Both the position numbers and the translations under genes were made by a program. From Lentisphaera araneosa HTCC2155 (GTDB lineage: Bacteria > Verrucomicrobiota > Lentisphaeria > Lentisphaerales > Lentisphaeraceae), in contig NZ_ABCK01000010.1 in the NCBI RefSeq assembly GCF_000170755.1, positions 62,001 to 126,000 on the forward strand: 64,000 nt of DNA, in the 5' to 3' direction. This document shows, in pieces, positions 1,614 to 61,930 of this stretch (position 1 is its first letter; each line of letters opens with the position of its first letter). Below the pieces are notes generated by a model. It made no database searches and was not told the DNA's origin. It saw nothing but the letters and a program-made list of their open reading frames with translations.

Positions 1614-2429
1614 TTACTCGGTGATCCACAAAGCTTGTAGGCAGGCAATAAAGCCCTTGTTCTGGAACCAATCGTTGAGCACCGCGGTTTGATTGGATCG
1701 TAGACCGATTCTCAGTGCATCAATTTCCAGCTCTTTTAAGTCAACTTCGAAGCTGTTGATCGCTTGCTGATTACGCACTTTAGGGATAGTCCAAAGCTGA
1801 GTGAATTGACTCAGTTCTTTAAAGCCACTTTTGACGGTGAGTTCATATTCCCAATCTAAGTTTTCGGGTGAATGACACATCAAATAAACTTTAAAGTTTT
1901 TCCCAGAGTCTATATAGCCTTGTAAATTTTCTATCTCGATATACAAACCACGGGGGTGGCACCAATAGGATTGACCGGGGCCGAAAGCAACACCGCCATC
2001 GGCATACTCTTTTGCCTCAAGACCTTGCGCATGTGCAATGACAGTGCGATCAAAATGATAAGCACGGCTTTTTTCTTCCGTAGTCGCATCGCCAAAACAA
2101 TCCATGTAATAAACGATTTGTTCATCACTAGGGATTTGTTCTTTGACCCATTGATCTTGTTCCGCTTGTATCTCCGCCAAGGGTTCGCGAAGTTTTTTAT
2201 CATAATCACTTGGCGCAATATAATTTTCTTTTAAAAGGTCCACAATTTCTTCATTAGGCTGCAGGTCTTGCGCATCGAGCCCCCAAAAGCGAATCCATGG
2301 CTTGCGACCACTGAAACGCAAGGTCATTTCATCACCTGCTTGATAAGACTCCATGGCTTGATCAATATCATCTAAGCGACAGGCTTTGGGAGCCTTTAGA
2401 GTCAATTTTAGGTCCTTTAATAAAGGCAT
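1614..2429 (-). CDS. Hypothetical protein, possibly the body of a frameshifted prepilin-leader gene
   Basis: An open frame of 271 residues from the only in-frame ATG. I do not recognise the domain. It is acidic, Trp- and Tyr-rich and lacks a signal peptide, transmembrane segment or known catalytic motif. The same frame stays open upstream of the ATG for about 40 codons, back through the DNA that encodes the neighbouring prepilin leader (2498-2590) in another frame, but that extension holds no obvious start codon. Either the ATG at 2429 is the true start, or a frameshift split one gene with a prepilin N-terminus from its body. It is the last gene of the GH36/FAD/GntR cluster. Confidence 0.6.
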   Translation of the reverse strand: MPLLKDLKLTLKAPKACRLDDIDQAMESYQAGDEMTLRFSGRKPWIRFWGLDAQDLQPNEEIVDLLKENYIAPSDYDKKLREPLAEIQAEQDQWVKEQIPSDEQIVYYMDCFGDATTEEKSRAYHFDRTVIAHAQGLEAKEYADGGVAFGPGQSYWCHPRGLYIEIENLQGYIDSGKNFKVYLMCHSPENLDWEYELTVKSGFKELSQFTQLWTIPKVRNQQAINSFEVDLKELEIDALRIGLRSNQTAVLNDWFQNKGFIACLQALWITE

Positions 2430-21135: not shown

Positions 21136-21656
21136 TCGCTCCGCTGATCAAACCTCACTGCAAGCAAAAGTCTAAAACCTAATTTGGGCGAGCCAAATAT
21201 TTTATTGTGGCTTATTTCATCTAACTCATGCTTACTGCATTCAGAAGATCATTCTGTGCTCAGCCCTCCTAGGATTTCAAGGCTCTGTGAAAAACACAAT
21301 AAAGGTGCAGCGCACCGATATACAATAGCGTGCGGTAAAGCCGCACGTACGAGATAATAAAATGAATGGAGGGCTCGCGGATGTGAGTCCGGCATAGAGT
21401 GTCGGACCCAAGCTTGGGCCCTAGATTAATTCCGAACCCATTTTCATGCCCCTGACGGAGCATGCTACATTCTAGCGGACTCACAGTTGAGCCCTGAAAA
21501 TTTAGATATTCTGAGTCATGCAGTTTTCATGTATGCTAAAAATTGTAGGCTCTAATTCGTTTATTATTTATTTTTCATACAGCCACTTACCTTATCGGAC
21601 TTGTTTAAAGTATACTTTCTGCATTAACTACTAGTACATTTCTATATGATTACCGA
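21136..21656. repeat. Non-coding region with a string of short perfect hairpins
   Basis: No convincing gene. Between about 21270 and 21490 several small hairpins follow one another: GGTGCAGCGCACC (about 21304), GTGCGG-TAAAG-CCGCAC (about 21331), and GGACCCAAGCTTGGGCCC (about 21404). The local base composition is richer in GC than the surroundings. The arrangement resembles the repeated hairpin arrays at 58425-59240 and 57155-57345, but the sequences differ. It could be processed RNA or a decayed palindromic element. Confidence 0.5.
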
Positions 21657-50656: not shown

Positions 50657-52042
50657 ATGAAGTATTTCTTAGTTATTTGCTCCCTTATTATCTCTGCAAT
50701 TGCAGATAACAGGCCAAACATTATTTTTATGATGGCTGATGACCAGGGATGGGATGGGCTCTCTGTTCAAATGCACCCTGAGATTAAAGAATCGAAACAT
50801 TCTTACATCCAGACTCCGGTGTTAGAAAAAATGGCCAAAGAAGGCATGCGCTTTTCGTCAGCTTATGCCCCCTCTCCCGTATGTTCTCCGACAAGAATCA
50901 GTCTGCAAACTGGTAAATCACCAGCAGCACTTCATTGGACAAAGGCTGCGAAATCTATTTCAGGAAGTCATAATTTTAAGCTTCTACCACCAAGAAATAT
51001 CAAAGCACTTTCTGAGTCAGAAACGACAATTGGCGAAATTTTGCAAAAAGCCGGCTACAAAACAGCACACTTTGGCAAATGGCATATTAATGGAGGCGGA
51101 CCGGGCAAACATGGTTACGACTTCCACGATGGGGATATCGGCAATGAATATGCGTTCAACTATAAAGACCCAAATCCTGCCGATATTTACGGAATGGCAA
51201 AAAGAGCCTGTAATTTTATGGAGTCGGCAAAAAAAGATGGTAAACCATTTTTCATCCAAATGTCATTTCATGCTCTTCACGCGCCACAAAATGCAATGAA
51301 AGATAGCATACAAAAATACGAAAAATTAGCCACTAAAGGAAATGAAAAGGAAATTGGCAGAGCAGCACTCTCCGAAAACCTGGATACTGGTGTCGGTATT
51401 GTTCTTAAGCACTTGAACAAACTGGGGCTTGATAAAAAAACCTATGTCATTTACATGTCCGATAACGGTGCAGGAGGTAAAAAAGGTATTCTCAGAGGTG
51501 GCAAAGGAGATGCATGGGAAGGTGGCATAAGATCTCCAATGATAGTCAGAGGTCCGGGAATTAAAGAAAATTCATGGTGTCATCAAAGAGTTGTGGGCTA
51601 TGACTGGTATCCTACATTTTGTCACTGGGCCGGGGTTGAGAACTTGCCACAAGGACTTGAAGGCGGAGATCTGAGTAAAGTTTTAAAAGACCCCTTAGAG
51701 GGAAAAGTCATACGACCAAGAAATGAACTTGTCTTTCATTTCCCCCATTACCAAGGAGACACTCCTCATACTGCATTAATCTCAGGAAACTGGAAACTGA
51801 TCAAATTCTATGAGACAAATGAATTTAGGCTTTTTAATCTGGGAAATGATATTTCAGAGAAAAATAACCTGGCCTCAATAAAACCTGAAGTCACAGCATC
51901 TCTAAAAGAAAAAATGATTACTTATTTAAATGAAGTCAATGCTCAAATGCCTTCAAAAAACCCTGATTATGACCCAAACAAGGAGTCGACTCCATTAAAG
52001 GGTAAAAAAGGGAATAAGAAAGATAAAAAGAAGAAAAAGTAA
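50657..52042 (+). CDS. Secreted Cys-type sulfatase
   Basis: A 461-residue type I sulfatase with signal peptide (about 1-17). Calcium-binding DD is at 28-29 (FMMADDQGWDGL). The formylglycine motif is VCSPTR with C76 to be oxidised and R80. GKWHINGGGPG (about 142) and YMSDNGAGGKKGILRGGKG (about 273) complete the active site. It has an unusual Lys-rich tail (last 15 residues). It should hydrolyse sulfate esters on a glycan after maturation by the radical SAM enzyme at 9897. It is last of the four-gene unit beginning at 44374, starting 6 nt after the cytochrome gene. The subfamily cannot be fixed by eye. Confidence 0.93.
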   Translation: MKYFLVICSLIISAIADNRPNIIFMMADDQGWDGLSVQMHPEIKESKHSYIQTPVLEKMAKEGMRFSSAYAPSPVCSPTRISLQTGKSPAALHWTKAAKSISGSHNFKLLPPRNIKALSESETTIGEILQKAGYKTAHFGKWHINGGGPGKHGYDFHDGDIGNEYAFNYKDPNPADIYGMAKRACNFMESAKKDGKPFFIQMSFHALHAPQNAMKDSIQKYEKLATKGNEKEIGRAALSENLDTGVGIVLKHLNKLGLDKKTYVIYMSDNGAGGKKGILRGGKGDAWEGGIRSPMIVRGPGIKENSWCHQRVVGYDWYPTFCHWAGVENLPQGLEGGDLSKVLKDPLEGKVIRPRNELVFHFPHYQGDTPHTALISGNWKLIKFYETNEFRLFNLGNDISEKNNLASIKPEVTASLKEKMITYLNEVNAQMPSKNPDYDPNKESTPLKGKKGNKKDKKKKK

Positions 52043-57559: not shown

Positions 57560-57639
57560 ATCTTTGAAAACCTTACTAAACGACAAAACTTGGGACGAAA
57601 ATTATGCAACTTTTCATTTTAAATAAAAAAGGTGATTTC

Positions 57640-58317
57640 ATGAAATCAAGGTTTACTTTGATCGAACTACTTGTGGTGATAGCCATTATTGGAATATTAG
57701 CATCTTTACTCTTACCAGTTTTGTCCAAAGCAAGGAGAACCGCGAGGGCGGCCCTTTGTGTTAGTAATGAACACCAGATCGGGATTGCTAGTGCTATGTA
57801 TCTTAGTGATAATGACAATCGTTTTACTGGCGGAAATTGGCAGAGCGGCGCCTATGATGCTGGAGCTTATTATGGTAGTAATTTGACAAATGCAAAAGGT
57901 CCAAGTGCTACTTGTTATAAACCAATTTATCATTTCAATTATATGTCTAACTGGGATGTATTTGTATGTCCAGTAACTCAAAAAGGTGATGCTCCTGAAT
58001 GGATGCAATGGAGGAACAGCTATCCAGGAAATGCCCAACTTCGGTATAATGTGAAATTGACTTCTATTCCTACCCCTTCCGAAGTAGCTTTCACTATGGA
58101 CGGATGGAGTGATGGGGTATTTCTTGATTGGAGGGCCTGGTTCATCTCCCCGCGGCATGATAGCAAAGCAAACGTTCTTTTCACTGATGGTCATGTAAAA
58201 CCCATGAGAGATCTGACAATAATTCAAAACCCACAAATGCTTGGTTTTGGGCGAGGTGACTTGTGGAACTGGCCAAATGGTGGCTGGCGCCTGGGAAACC
58301 TCAATTATGACAATTAG
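57640..58317 (+). CDS. Prepilin-leader (pseudopilin-like) protein
   Basis: 225 residues from the ATG at 57640, chosen because it gives the standard leader [32 protein letters not shown] and has AAAGGTGA just upstream; a longer frame starts at 57604. The body is short and Trp-rich, with the common C-terminal motif [18 protein letters not shown]. The residue before the cleavage site is Arg instead of Gly. It probably sits in the inner membrane or is assembled into a pseudopilus. It has its own ECF-like promoter, like the two prepilins at 14522 and 15816. It is followed by a hairpin-repeat array, not a gene. Confidence 0.9.
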
Positions 58318-58424: not shown

Positions 58425-59240
58425 CTCTATGCCGTTCCTTCAGAACTCACAATAGTGTTTTTGTTTAGTAGTCCTAGCCCTTACGGGCCAGGCTAAATTA
58501 TGCCGTGCTTTCAGCACTCAATTTACCTAATAAATCAAGCCTTGTTGTACCGTACTTTCTGCACTTATTTTGAATGCCGAAGGCATGATATAACACAGCC
58601 CAATGGCGTAAGCCTTGGGATAATGACAGAAGTTCATTCATCAGAATGCCAAAGGCATGACATAGAGCTCTATGCCGTTCCTTCAGAACTCACAATAGTG
58701 TTTTTGTTTAGTAGTCCTAGCCCGGGCCAGGCTAAATTATGCCGTGCTTTCAGCACTCAATTTACCTAATAAATCAAGCCTTGTTGTACCGTACTTTCTG
58801 CACTTATTTTGAATGCCGAAGGCATGATATAACACAGCCCAATGGCGTAAGCCTTGGGATAATGACAAAAGTTCATTCATCAGAATGCCGAAGGTATGAT
58901 ATAGAGCTCTATGCCGTCCCTTCAGAACTCACAATAGTGTTTTTGTTTAGTAGTCCTAGCCCTTACGGGCCAGGCTAAATTATGCCGTGCTTTCAGCACT
59001 TATTTTGAATGCCGAAGGCATGATATAACACAGCCCAATGGCGTAAGCCTTGGGATAATGACAGAAGTTCATGCATCAGAATGCCGAAGGCATGACATAG
59101 AGCTCTATGCCGTTCCTTCAGAACTCACAATAGTGTTTTTGTTTAGTAGTCCTAGCCCTTACGGGCCAGGCTAAATTATGCCGTGCTTTTAGCACTTCTT
59201 TTGAATGCCGAAGGCATGACATAGACCTCCTACCCTTTCT
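58425..59240. repeat. Tandem array of a ~240-bp unit built from small hairpins
   Basis: Units start at 58425, 58668, 58907 and 59103 (lengths 243, 239, 196 and a final partial unit of about 135). Unit 2 lost the four bases TTAC inside a hairpin loop; unit 3 lost 47 bases. Each unit is a string of mini-palindromes: ATGCC-GAA-GGCAT, GCCC-TTAC-GGGC inside TAGCC/GGCTA, GTGCT-TTC-AGCAC, GGC-GTAA-GCC. Open frames inside (58500-58769 and 58739-58978) are repeats of each other and not credible genes. The region 58318-59400 has no gene. Confidence 0.92.
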
Positions 59241-59320
59241 TCACAACTCGATGCCCATCTAATTCATCGCCAAATAGCTAGCTTCACAACCTAAAAAAAT
59301 AATATTTGTTTCAAATACTC

Positions 59321-59424: not shown

Positions 59425-60237
59425 ATGAAAAAAATAACAATGTTGCTGATCATACTTTTTACAAGTATCGCATGTGCAAGTACTCAAGTTAAACCCATAC
59501 AAGTCTTGATGATCACAGGTGGTGGCTGGCATGATTATAAAAAACAAGCCCCTGTTTTAAAAGAGGCTATCGAAAGTCAGATTAATGCTGAAGTTACCAT
59601 AAAGTGGACTTCTACCAAAGAACATCCACTTAGCCCCACTGAAAACAAACTTCCAGAAGTTTTTAAGGGCGACTTCTGCAAAGGTTATGATGTGGTTTTC
59701 CACAATCACTGCCAGGTCTTTTTTAAGGATGATGACGCCATTAATAAAGTGATAGATAATCACATCAAAAACAAAGTCGGTGTTATCATGACTCATGGCT
59801 CTTTCCATACTTGGTTTAAAACAAAACGTGAAGCGTGGGATAGAATCTGCGGTATCAACAGCATTCGTCACCACCACAATTCCCCGCTTAAAATAGAAGT
59901 TACGGACAAAACTCACCCGGTCATGAAAGCTCTCGGCACCGATGGCTGGCAAACGGAAAAAGGCGAACTCTACGAAACAAGCCTTAAAAAAACGACTCAA
60001 TCTCTAGCAACAGGAACCACTCTTACAGGCGCTAAACATACTGAGGAATGTATTTTTTCTCACACTAATTTGGGGATTAAAATGTTTGGTACCACACTAG
60101 GTCATGACACTTCAACTATGGAACAAGATGTCTACAAAAAAATGATGGCCTTGGGTATTCTTTGGGCGGCTAATAAGCTCGACAAAGATGGTAAAGTAAG
60201 TCCAGGATATCAAAAGAAAATAACTGTTTTAAAGTAA
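59425..60237 (+). CDS. Secreted ThuA-domain protein
   Basis: A 270-residue exported protein (signal about 1-18, ending IACA). The ThuA-like glutamine-amidotransferase-type fold is visible: VLMITGGGWHDYKKQAPVLKEAIE (about 28-51), VVFHNHCQVFF, GVIMTHGSFHTWF (about 115-127), HHHNSPLKIEVTDKTHPVMKAL, FGTTLGHDTSTM. ThuA proteins are linked to trehalose and other disaccharide use and often occur with DUF1080 and dehydrogenase genes in PVC bacteria. It leads a unit with the sulfatase at 60485 and the CBM6 protein at 61983, though a 247-nt gap with a hairpin separates the first two. Confidence 0.9.
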   Translation: MKKITMLLIILFTSIACASTQVKPIQVLMITGGGWHDYKKQAPVLKEAIESQINAEVTIKWTSTKEHPLSPTENKLPEVFKGDFCKGYDVVFHNHCQVFFKDDDAINKVIDNHIKNKVGVIMTHGSFHTWFKTKREAWDRICGINSIRHHHNSPLKIEVTDKTHPVMKALGTDGWQTEKGELYETSLKKTTQSLATGTTLTGAKHTEECIFSHTNLGIKMFGTTLGHDTSTMEQDVYKKMMALGILWAANKLDKDGKVSPGYQKKITVLK

Positions 60238-60336: not shown

Positions 60337-60484
60337 GTCAATGAAGTCAAAAGATCAAGAAGTTTAGCTTAGTATAGAACACGAATTTGGGAATTGGACA
60401 ACCCAGATATAAATGAACTCAGCTTCAAGGAAACTGAGTTCATCTACCCTCCAAAATAAACACAAGTAACTTAAGGTGAATTCA

Positions 60485-61930
60485 ATGAAATCAAGTCGTT
60501 TAAACTATAGATTTTTAAGTGTACTAGCCTTGTTCATCTCAATGAACCTCTATGCACAAACACCTCAAACAAAAAAAGATACTGAGCGCCCAAACATAGT
60601 CCTGATACTCTGTGACGATCTTGGCTATGGCGACCTGGCTTGCTATGGGCACAAACAAATAAAAACACCAAACCTCGATCAAATGGCTAAAGAAGGCATA
60701 CGCTTTAACCATTTTTATTCAGCTGCACCCGTCTGCTCCGCATCTCGCGTTGGCCTTTTAACGGGTCGCAGCCCGAATCGAGCTGGTGTCTACGACTGGA
60801 TCCCCCATAGTTCAGAGAGTTCGAGCCCCCACATGCGCAAAAATGAAATCACCTTTCCTCAATTATTACAGAAGGCTGGATACGCAACATGCTTATCGGG
60901 CAAATGGCATTGTAATGGAGCGCTAATCAACACAAATCAAGCTCAACCCCAAGACGCTGGCTTTGATTACTGGTTCGCCACACAAAACAATGCTGCGCCA
61001 TCTCACAAGAATCCCGTTAATTTCATCCGAAATGGCGTAGAGCTTGGCCCCATAGAGGGTTTTAGCTGCCAAATCGTCACAAACGAGGCCATTAACTGGA
61101 TGGAAGATCACGTCAAACAAAATGAAAAGCAGCCCTTTTTCATTTACCTTTCTTTTCATGAACCCCATGAACCCATTGCTTCTCCTCAAAAGATTGTCGA
61201 CACTTACAAAGGAATTGCTGAAAATACCAATCAAGCTGAGTATTTTGCTAATGTAGAAAACCTCGACAAGGCTGTTGGCAGCTTGATGAATCAACTCAAA
61301 AAATTAAAAATAAATGACAATACCTTAGTCATTTTTACTTCAGATAATGGGCCTGAAACGCTTAATCGTTATGAAGCAGCGAGTCGGTCTTATGGTTCAC
61401 CAGGTGAACTCAAGGGAATGAAGCTCTGGACTGCCGAAGCTGGTTTTCGCGTACCGGCTATCATGCACTGGCCAGAAAAAATAGCTACGGGTCAAATCAG
61501 CGACCAAGTCATTTCAGCCTTAGATTTCTTCCCAACTTTTTGTGATTTAGCACAGGCATCTAACTCTAAGTCATTAAATTTAGATGGCAGTAATTTCACC
61601 CCTGCTCTCCACAAGAAAAAAATGACTCGCCATAAGCCCCTGCTCTGGATTTATTATGCGGCCCTCAATGAGCGTCAGGTCGCAATGCGTCATGGTGATT
61701 GGAAGATCAGTGCAAAATTAAATCTTCCTAGGTACCATAATATCACTTCAAAAAACTTCCCCAAAGTCACAGCAGCAACTTTATCTGATTACCAACTCTA
61801 TAATCTCAGCAAAGACAAATCAGAGGCTAATGATCTTAGCAATCAAAACCCAAAAAAATCAGCTCAAATGATTAAATTTCTCAAGCTGCAATATCAGGAT
61901 TTACTTGAGGATTCACATACATGGAAATAA
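60485..61930 (+). CDS. Secreted Cys-type sulfatase
   Basis: 481 residues from the ATG at 60485, chosen because AAGGTG lies seven bases ahead; the frame extends to a GTG at 60476. Signal peptide about 1-24 (ending LYA). ILCDDLGYGDLACYGH gives the metal-binding D44/D45. The formylglycine motif is VCSASR with C84 and R88. SGKWHCNG, FIYLSFHEPHEP and FTSDNGPETLNRYEAASRSYG complete the site. It belongs to the type I family and depends on a maturase. It probably removes sulfate from the same glycan class as the neighbouring enzymes. The CBM6 protein follows after 52 nt. Confidence 0.93.
   Translation: MKSSRLNYRFLSVLALFISMNLYAQTPQTKKDTERPNIVLILCDDLGYGDLACYGHKQIKTPNLDQMAKEGIRFNHFYSAAPVCSASRVGLLTGRSPNRAGVYDWIPHSSESSSPHMRKNEITFPQLLQKAGYATCLSGKWHCNGALINTNQAQPQDAGFDYWFATQNNAAPSHKNPVNFIRNGVELGPIEGFSCQIVTNEAINWMEDHVKQNEKQPFFIYLSFHEPHEPIASPQKIVDTYKGIAENTNQAEYFANVENLDKAVGSLMNQLKKLKINDNTLVIFTSDNGPETLNRYEAASRSYGSPGELKGMKLWTAEAGFRVPAIMHWPEKIATGQISDQVISALDFFPTFCDLAQASNSKSLNLDGSNFTPALHKKKMTRHKPLLWIYYAALNERQVAMRHGDWKISAKLNLPRYHNITSKNFPKVTAATLSDYQLYNLSKDKSEANDLSNQNPKKSAQMIKFLKLQYQDLLEDSHTWK

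Follow-up and report, generated by a model that had tools for sequence, protein, structure and literature searches.

A tandem hairpin array of Lentisphaera araneosa belongs to a family of intergenic two-hairpin elements associated with Y1 transposase genes of the subclass 1.2 type

The array of small hairpins at 58425-59223 of the window (the whole 64,000-nucleotide stretch of Lentisphaera araneosa HTCC2155 DNA analysed here) is part of a dispersed intergenic family of two-hairpin elements that is physically and evolutionarily tied to Y1 enzymes of the subclass 1.2 type. The array is probably a cluster of BIME-like organization, made up of REP-like DNA elements that are non-autonomous and rely for their copying on a cognate Y1 enzyme of subclass 1.2. 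Its elements belong to the same sequence-structure family as Acido-Lenti-1 (RF01687), a motif that Rfam lists as a small RNA gene. What is new here is what this motif travels with, namely Y1 genes of a subclass that was published as lacking REP sequences.

The array is a BIME-like tandem arrangement of units of 243 bp (58425-58667), 239 bp (58668-58906) and 196 bp (58907-59102), followed by a partial fourth unit of about 120 bp (59103-59222). A preliminary description of this DNA had correctly recognized a tandem array, but its four units of about 240 bases have to be replaced by these sizes. In a full element, which is about 46 nt long, the hairpins H1 (about 8 bp) and H2 (about 5 bp) are joined by a linker of 12 nt that reads CTnnnnTATGTC on the Rfam strand. 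Scanning with the Rfam model located seven full elements in the array, four on the plus and three on the minus strand in alternation, with scores of 45.3-64.2 bits against a gathering cut-off of 37 bits. Unit 1 carries an element at 58473-58518 (plus strand; 64.2 bits, E 2e-13) and one of a second sequence form at 58573-58619 (minus strand; 45.3 bits), which scored 62.1 and 44 bits, respectively, with R1, a covariance model that we built from 31 elements. The corresponding elements of unit 2 lie at 58716-58757 (plus strand; 49.9 bits, with an H1 loop that is 4 nt shorter) and 58812-58858 (minus strand; second form, 45.3 bits), and those of unit 3 at 58955-59000 (plus strand; 64.2 bits, adjoining a 47-nt loss) and 59008-59054 (minus strand; second form, 45.3 bits). 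The partial unit contains one at 59151-59196 (plus strand; 61.2 bits). Half elements made up of H2 only are present as well. One with a TATGCC + GTTC hairpin is found at 58428-58446 (plus strand; weak R1 match, E 0.81) and recurs exactly at the start of every unit, for instance at 59106-59124. Another, with the ATGCCGAAGGCAT hairpin, closes the array at 59205-59223 (minus strand; weak R1 match, E 0.17). Across the 6.02 Mb of the genome, ATGCCGAAGGCAT was counted 34 times, and its reversed form, used as a control, not once.

The units differ from each other by a few clean losses. Unit 2 is missing TTAC from the H1 loop, and units 3 and 4 are missing 47 bases between short direct GCACT words; both losses had been pointed out before and are confirmed. 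Unit 1 has a loop change of its own, ATGCCAAAGGCAT, and the other differences among the units are scattered single substitutions. The AAGGCAT/AAGGTAT pair, previously thought to look compensatory, is a one-sided change from G-C to G.T, and a search for compensatory changes inside the array found none. When folded as single-stranded DNA, the 816-nt stretch gave z = -4.9, in agreement with the described dominance of small hairpins.

The array is flanked by a pseudopilin-like gene (57604-58317, plus strand) and a gene that begins at 59425 (plus strand), and no convincing gene was found within 58425-59223. The pseudopilin-like gene was identified by eye, as were sulfatase-like genes near the array at 50657-52042 and 60476-61930. 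A clean empty site was sought in the closest relative and not found. Homology with this relative begins at about 59292, just past the right end of the array, with nothing related on the left; the conserved gene on the right (protein 96% identical) is preceded there by an unrelated gene. The array therefore sits at a synteny break (about 59223-59292). One more full element lies elsewhere in the window, at 21301-21349 (minus strand; R1 32.6 bits, E 2.2e-7), where other small hairpins adjoin it. A separate short tandem repeat with a period of 33 (2.6 copies) occupies 4-90.

Across the source genome (6,023,180 bases in 81 contigs) we detected 124 matches to RF01687 in 47 clusters. All 64 elements of the family that were tested fall outside open reading frames, which cover 69% of the sequence examined. 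Acido-Lenti-1 goes back to a comparative screen (Weinberg et al., 2010, PMC2864571) and is typed as an sRNA without a known role. It has since been noted near Tannerella proteases and suggested as a possible protease regulator (PMC13298647), and it is also listed for Vibrio (PMC10059132). The range observed in this study extends well beyond the two phyla of the 2010 listing.

The source genome encodes 16 proteins with a Y1_Tnp match, four of which are short HUH/Y1 proteins (142-162 aa). Inspection of their surroundings showed that each of the four short genes is flanked left and right by hairpin repeats of its own sequence family. The 12 longer Y1_Tnp matches, which probably represent another Y1 class, have no elements within 1.5 kb. 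The four genes are single and diverged, with proteins 34-51% identical to the first. For one of them (locus L009), 11 of the 13 copies of the repeat family share the contig of the gene and lie no more than about 25 kb from it; amplification mainly near the own gene has been reported for some RAYTs (PMC2817692). None of the short Y1 genes is located within the 64-kb window, and the array is thus a gene-less satellite of the Acido-Lenti-1 family. Its likely partner, judged by sequence likeness, is the Y1 gene at G000:C1:416845-417306 (minus strand). Acido-Lenti-1 copies surround this gene, and those flanking it share with the array H2, most of the linker and the outer H1 stem. Near the same gene, a group II intron abuts a second-form element in which H1 and the linker are kept and H2 is missing, as if the intron had inserted there (locus L011, G000:C1:415438-418785, from about locus position 2183-2215 onward); an RF00029 match is found at 2303-2379 (minus strand) of locus L056, around the gene.

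We compiled 53 loci with such Y1 genes, and in 53 of 53 the encoded protein contains HUH, the Tyr, WQ and the Y---Q--HH motif, with H56, H58, W99, Q100, Y119, Q123, H126 and H127 invariant. This motif set and the length of about 150 aa, on which the class assignment rests, match TnpAY1 subclass 1.2. The class 2 motif Y---NP of known RAYTs is absent from all 53. All four short proteins of the source genome score at or above the cut-off of the NCBIfam model for IS200 transposases (NF033573), and one has a weak match to a REP-associated NCBIfam model, far under its cut-off. The best fold matches of an AlphaFold model of the enzyme are the TnpA proteins of ISDra2 and IS608, and comparison with the REP-bound RAYT 4er8 gave E 3.5e-4.

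The association between elements and enzymes extends across genomes. Among 289 genomes of the window's phylum, 46 contain both a Y1 gene of this type and RF01687, 22 RF01687 without a detected Y1 gene, 18 Y1 only and 203 neither (odds ratio 23.6). The same comparison in a second phylum, Bacteroidota (247 genomes, centred on a Bacteroidales genome), gave 23, 6, 86 and 132, respectively (odds ratio 5.9). Among the matches listed outside the source genome in the window's phylum, 12 of 130 RF01687 matches were within 1 kb of a Y1 gene (0.16 expected), and among those listed in the second phylum the number was about 15 of 120 (0.17 expected). Filtering was stricter in scans covering more than 40 genomes, and few candidates were scored in each. 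In both phyla, Rfam's own model detects the motif next to many Y1 genes.

R1, to which 18 of the 53 Y1 loci contributed, found matches at 44 of the 53, including 26 of the 35 loci outside the training set. No match was obtained in 30 control regions, which were of comparable size and were taken from the same contigs at a distance of about 20 kb, at four loci with longer Y1 genes, or at eight IS200-type loci without the HH signature. A held-out locus on a Persicobacter plasmid yielded an R1 match with an inverted pair; three of four added held-out loci with the HH signature had no significant match, nor did either of two distant relatives of the enzyme found among genome contigs. Nine of the 53 loci were missed by R1, and several of these appear by eye to have a similar two-hairpin plan with a longer H1. 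We also searched for the bare architecture (hairpin, 10-15 nt linker, AG, hairpin) without a trained model, which recovered 86 elements in 32 of the 53 loci versus one in the 30 controls. Elements were detected on both sides of the gene by R1 at 30 of the 53 loci. The nearest element, often 40-70 bp away, has H1 facing the gene in 66 of 74 cases, upstream and downstream alike. Such inverted, outward flanking is the geometry of insertion sequences and REPtrons and is unlike what would be expected for an sRNA gene. Distances between enzymes correlate with distances between elements (Mantel r 0.41, p 2e-4), although the genomes are phylogenetically related and p-values are therefore optimistic.

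The alignment of the elements was made partly by hand, with an N placeholder put in short loops since H1 loops have 3 or 4 nt. In this alignment, 94% of the stem cells are paired across genomes, the covariation score is 0.61 compared to 0.18 in shuffles, and 11 of the 13 stem pairs change on both sides. The hairpins are therefore what is conserved, and the pairing-preserving variation asked about in the preliminary description is strong across genomes but almost absent within the array. The exceptions to Watson-Crick pairing are lopsided: on the Rfam strand, 100 of 1787 cells are A.C and 10 are G.T. When counted per locus and with loop-closing pairs excluded, the bias is modest (24 A.C versus 10 G.T, p 0.024). 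An A.C mismatch reads as G.T on the opposite strand, so that selection for folding more likely acts on the strand complementary to Rfam's. On that complement, which folds as single-stranded DNA into exactly these two hairpins, the order is AG-H2-GACATAnnnnAG-H1 and an AG stands at the 5' foot of both hairpins. At H2 the G of the AG is the first stem base, and at H1 the foot is nnAG in 114 of 141 cases (CCAG, ATAG and ACAG are the commonest). The operative strand thus appears to be the complement, with a 5' AG foot at each hairpin just as REPs have GTAG. In REPs the A3G4 of this foot has been proposed to select the CT cleavage site (PMC8266576). The tetranucleotide GT[AG]G itself was tested for at the 5' hairpin foot and is absent.

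These observations bear on whether Acido-Lenti-1 could be a true small RNA, or an RNA element acting in cis, with its closeness to Y1 secondary (it might, for example, regulate the transposase or be carried along). Both stems covary strongly, RF01687 is filed as an sRNA gene, and regulation of an IS transposase by small RNAs is known for ISPpu9 (PMC8450116). We nevertheless consider an RNA unlikely, given copies on both strands of one array, the scarcity of G.U pairing when the Rfam strand is read (10 of 1787 cells), more than 100 clustered copies per genome, the outward-facing copies on either side of the gene, and a promoter-like signal near the array that did not rise above chance. The structured non-coding RNA entertained in the preliminary description accordingly retains its Rfam filing and loses ground to the occurrence on both strands, a mismatch pattern that on the Rfam strand is not that of RNA, and the type of enzyme involved, which processes single-stranded DNA. 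A nuclease-resistant spacer, also proposed there, found no specific support, whereas the suggested selfish palindromic element family is borne out by dispersed intergenic copies that are inverted around a Y1 transposase gene in dozens of genomes. RF01687 is likely to be a REP-like superfamily, present in at least two phyla, of two-hairpin nnAG units that probably function as DNA on the non-Rfam strand and are maintained by lineage-specific subclass 1.2 Y1 transposases, and not an RNA.

Two further explanations were considered. The elements could be hairpins from the termini of ordinary IS200-type insertion sequences, with the arrays representing decayed, MITE-like ends, as the NF033573 scores and the structural resemblance to the ISDra2 and IS608 TnpA proteins would allow. 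This is quite unlikely, as the four Y1 genes are diverged single genes instead of near-identical copies, gene-less elements exceed Y1 genes about 30 to 1, the eight IS200-type loci lack such elements, and the ends are symmetrical inverted two-hairpin units. It is far less probable still that the hairpins are bidirectional terminators or mRNA 3'-end protectors spread by tandem duplication, or that the array is an assembly artefact. Two plus-strand hairpins that precede T-rich stretches do score as terminator-like, and tandem repeats can be mis-assembled; however, most elements lack the T-run, substitutions and indels distinguish the units, and across many genera the elements recur at dozens of loci, linked to a single enzyme. 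As a sole explanation, terminators, protectors or an artefact are contradicted by the Y1 association and its outward orientation.

REP-like elements linked to a Y1 enzyme remain the preferred reading. Like the REP/BIME/REPIN and RAYT systems, or REPtrons (PMC2817692, PMC6006769, PMC8266576), the family consists of short dispersed intergenic palindromes in clusters of alternating orientation, forms inverted pairs around a single-copy HUH/Y1 gene with which it co-diverges, and carries a 5' AG at the hairpin foot. It differs in having two hairpins and a conserved linker per unit, a foot of nnAG instead of GT[AG]G, and an enzyme with the class 1 motif Y---Q--HH where RAYTs have the class 2 motif Y---NP. 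The system would resemble REP/RAYT in its working, but since tests for a GT[AG]G foot and for Y---NP in the enzyme showed both to be absent it should not be filed as canonical REP. The enzymes share HuH, WQ, Y---Q--HH, a length of about 150 aa and a low copy number with TnpAY1 subclass 1.2, which Quentin et al. (2018, PMC6006769) listed as 'no' for REP and as distributed chiefly among Cyanobacteria and Bacteroidetes. In contrast, most loci examined here have flanking elements, and the proteins are found in the window's phylum as well. No paper joining subclass 1.2 with Acido-Lenti-1/RF01687 was found in the open-licence literature. The IS200/IS605 family (ISDra2, IS608) has the same transposase fold, HUH, catalytic Tyr and hairpins near both ends, but the source genome is without near-identical whole copies, and the symmetrical inverted ends and the large surplus of gene-less copies set the present family apart. 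No tnpB was seen beside the Y1 genes that were read.

In the mechanism that we propose, the Y1 enzyme would bind the hairpins in single-stranded DNA and cut nearby, with the 5' AG at the hairpin foot serving as a guide, and would thereby copy or move the elements. Each Y1 gene would in this way maintain its own repeat family. The array may have arisen by local tandem amplification after an insertion, and ordinary slippage or recombination could account both for its growth and for the way in which sequence between short direct repeats was cleanly lost.

If correct, these conclusions would revise the status of a family that Rfam types as 'sRNA', that is annotated by genome pipelines and that was recently read as possible regulation (PMC13298647), as well as the report that Y1 transposase subclass 1.2 lacks REP sequences. 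The orphan enzymes of this subclass would gain a candidate substrate that can be tested directly. The link between REPs and Y1 enzymes would extend past the published REP-associated classes, and REP-type repeat systems would reach many genomes in two further groups, the window's phylum and Bacteroidota.
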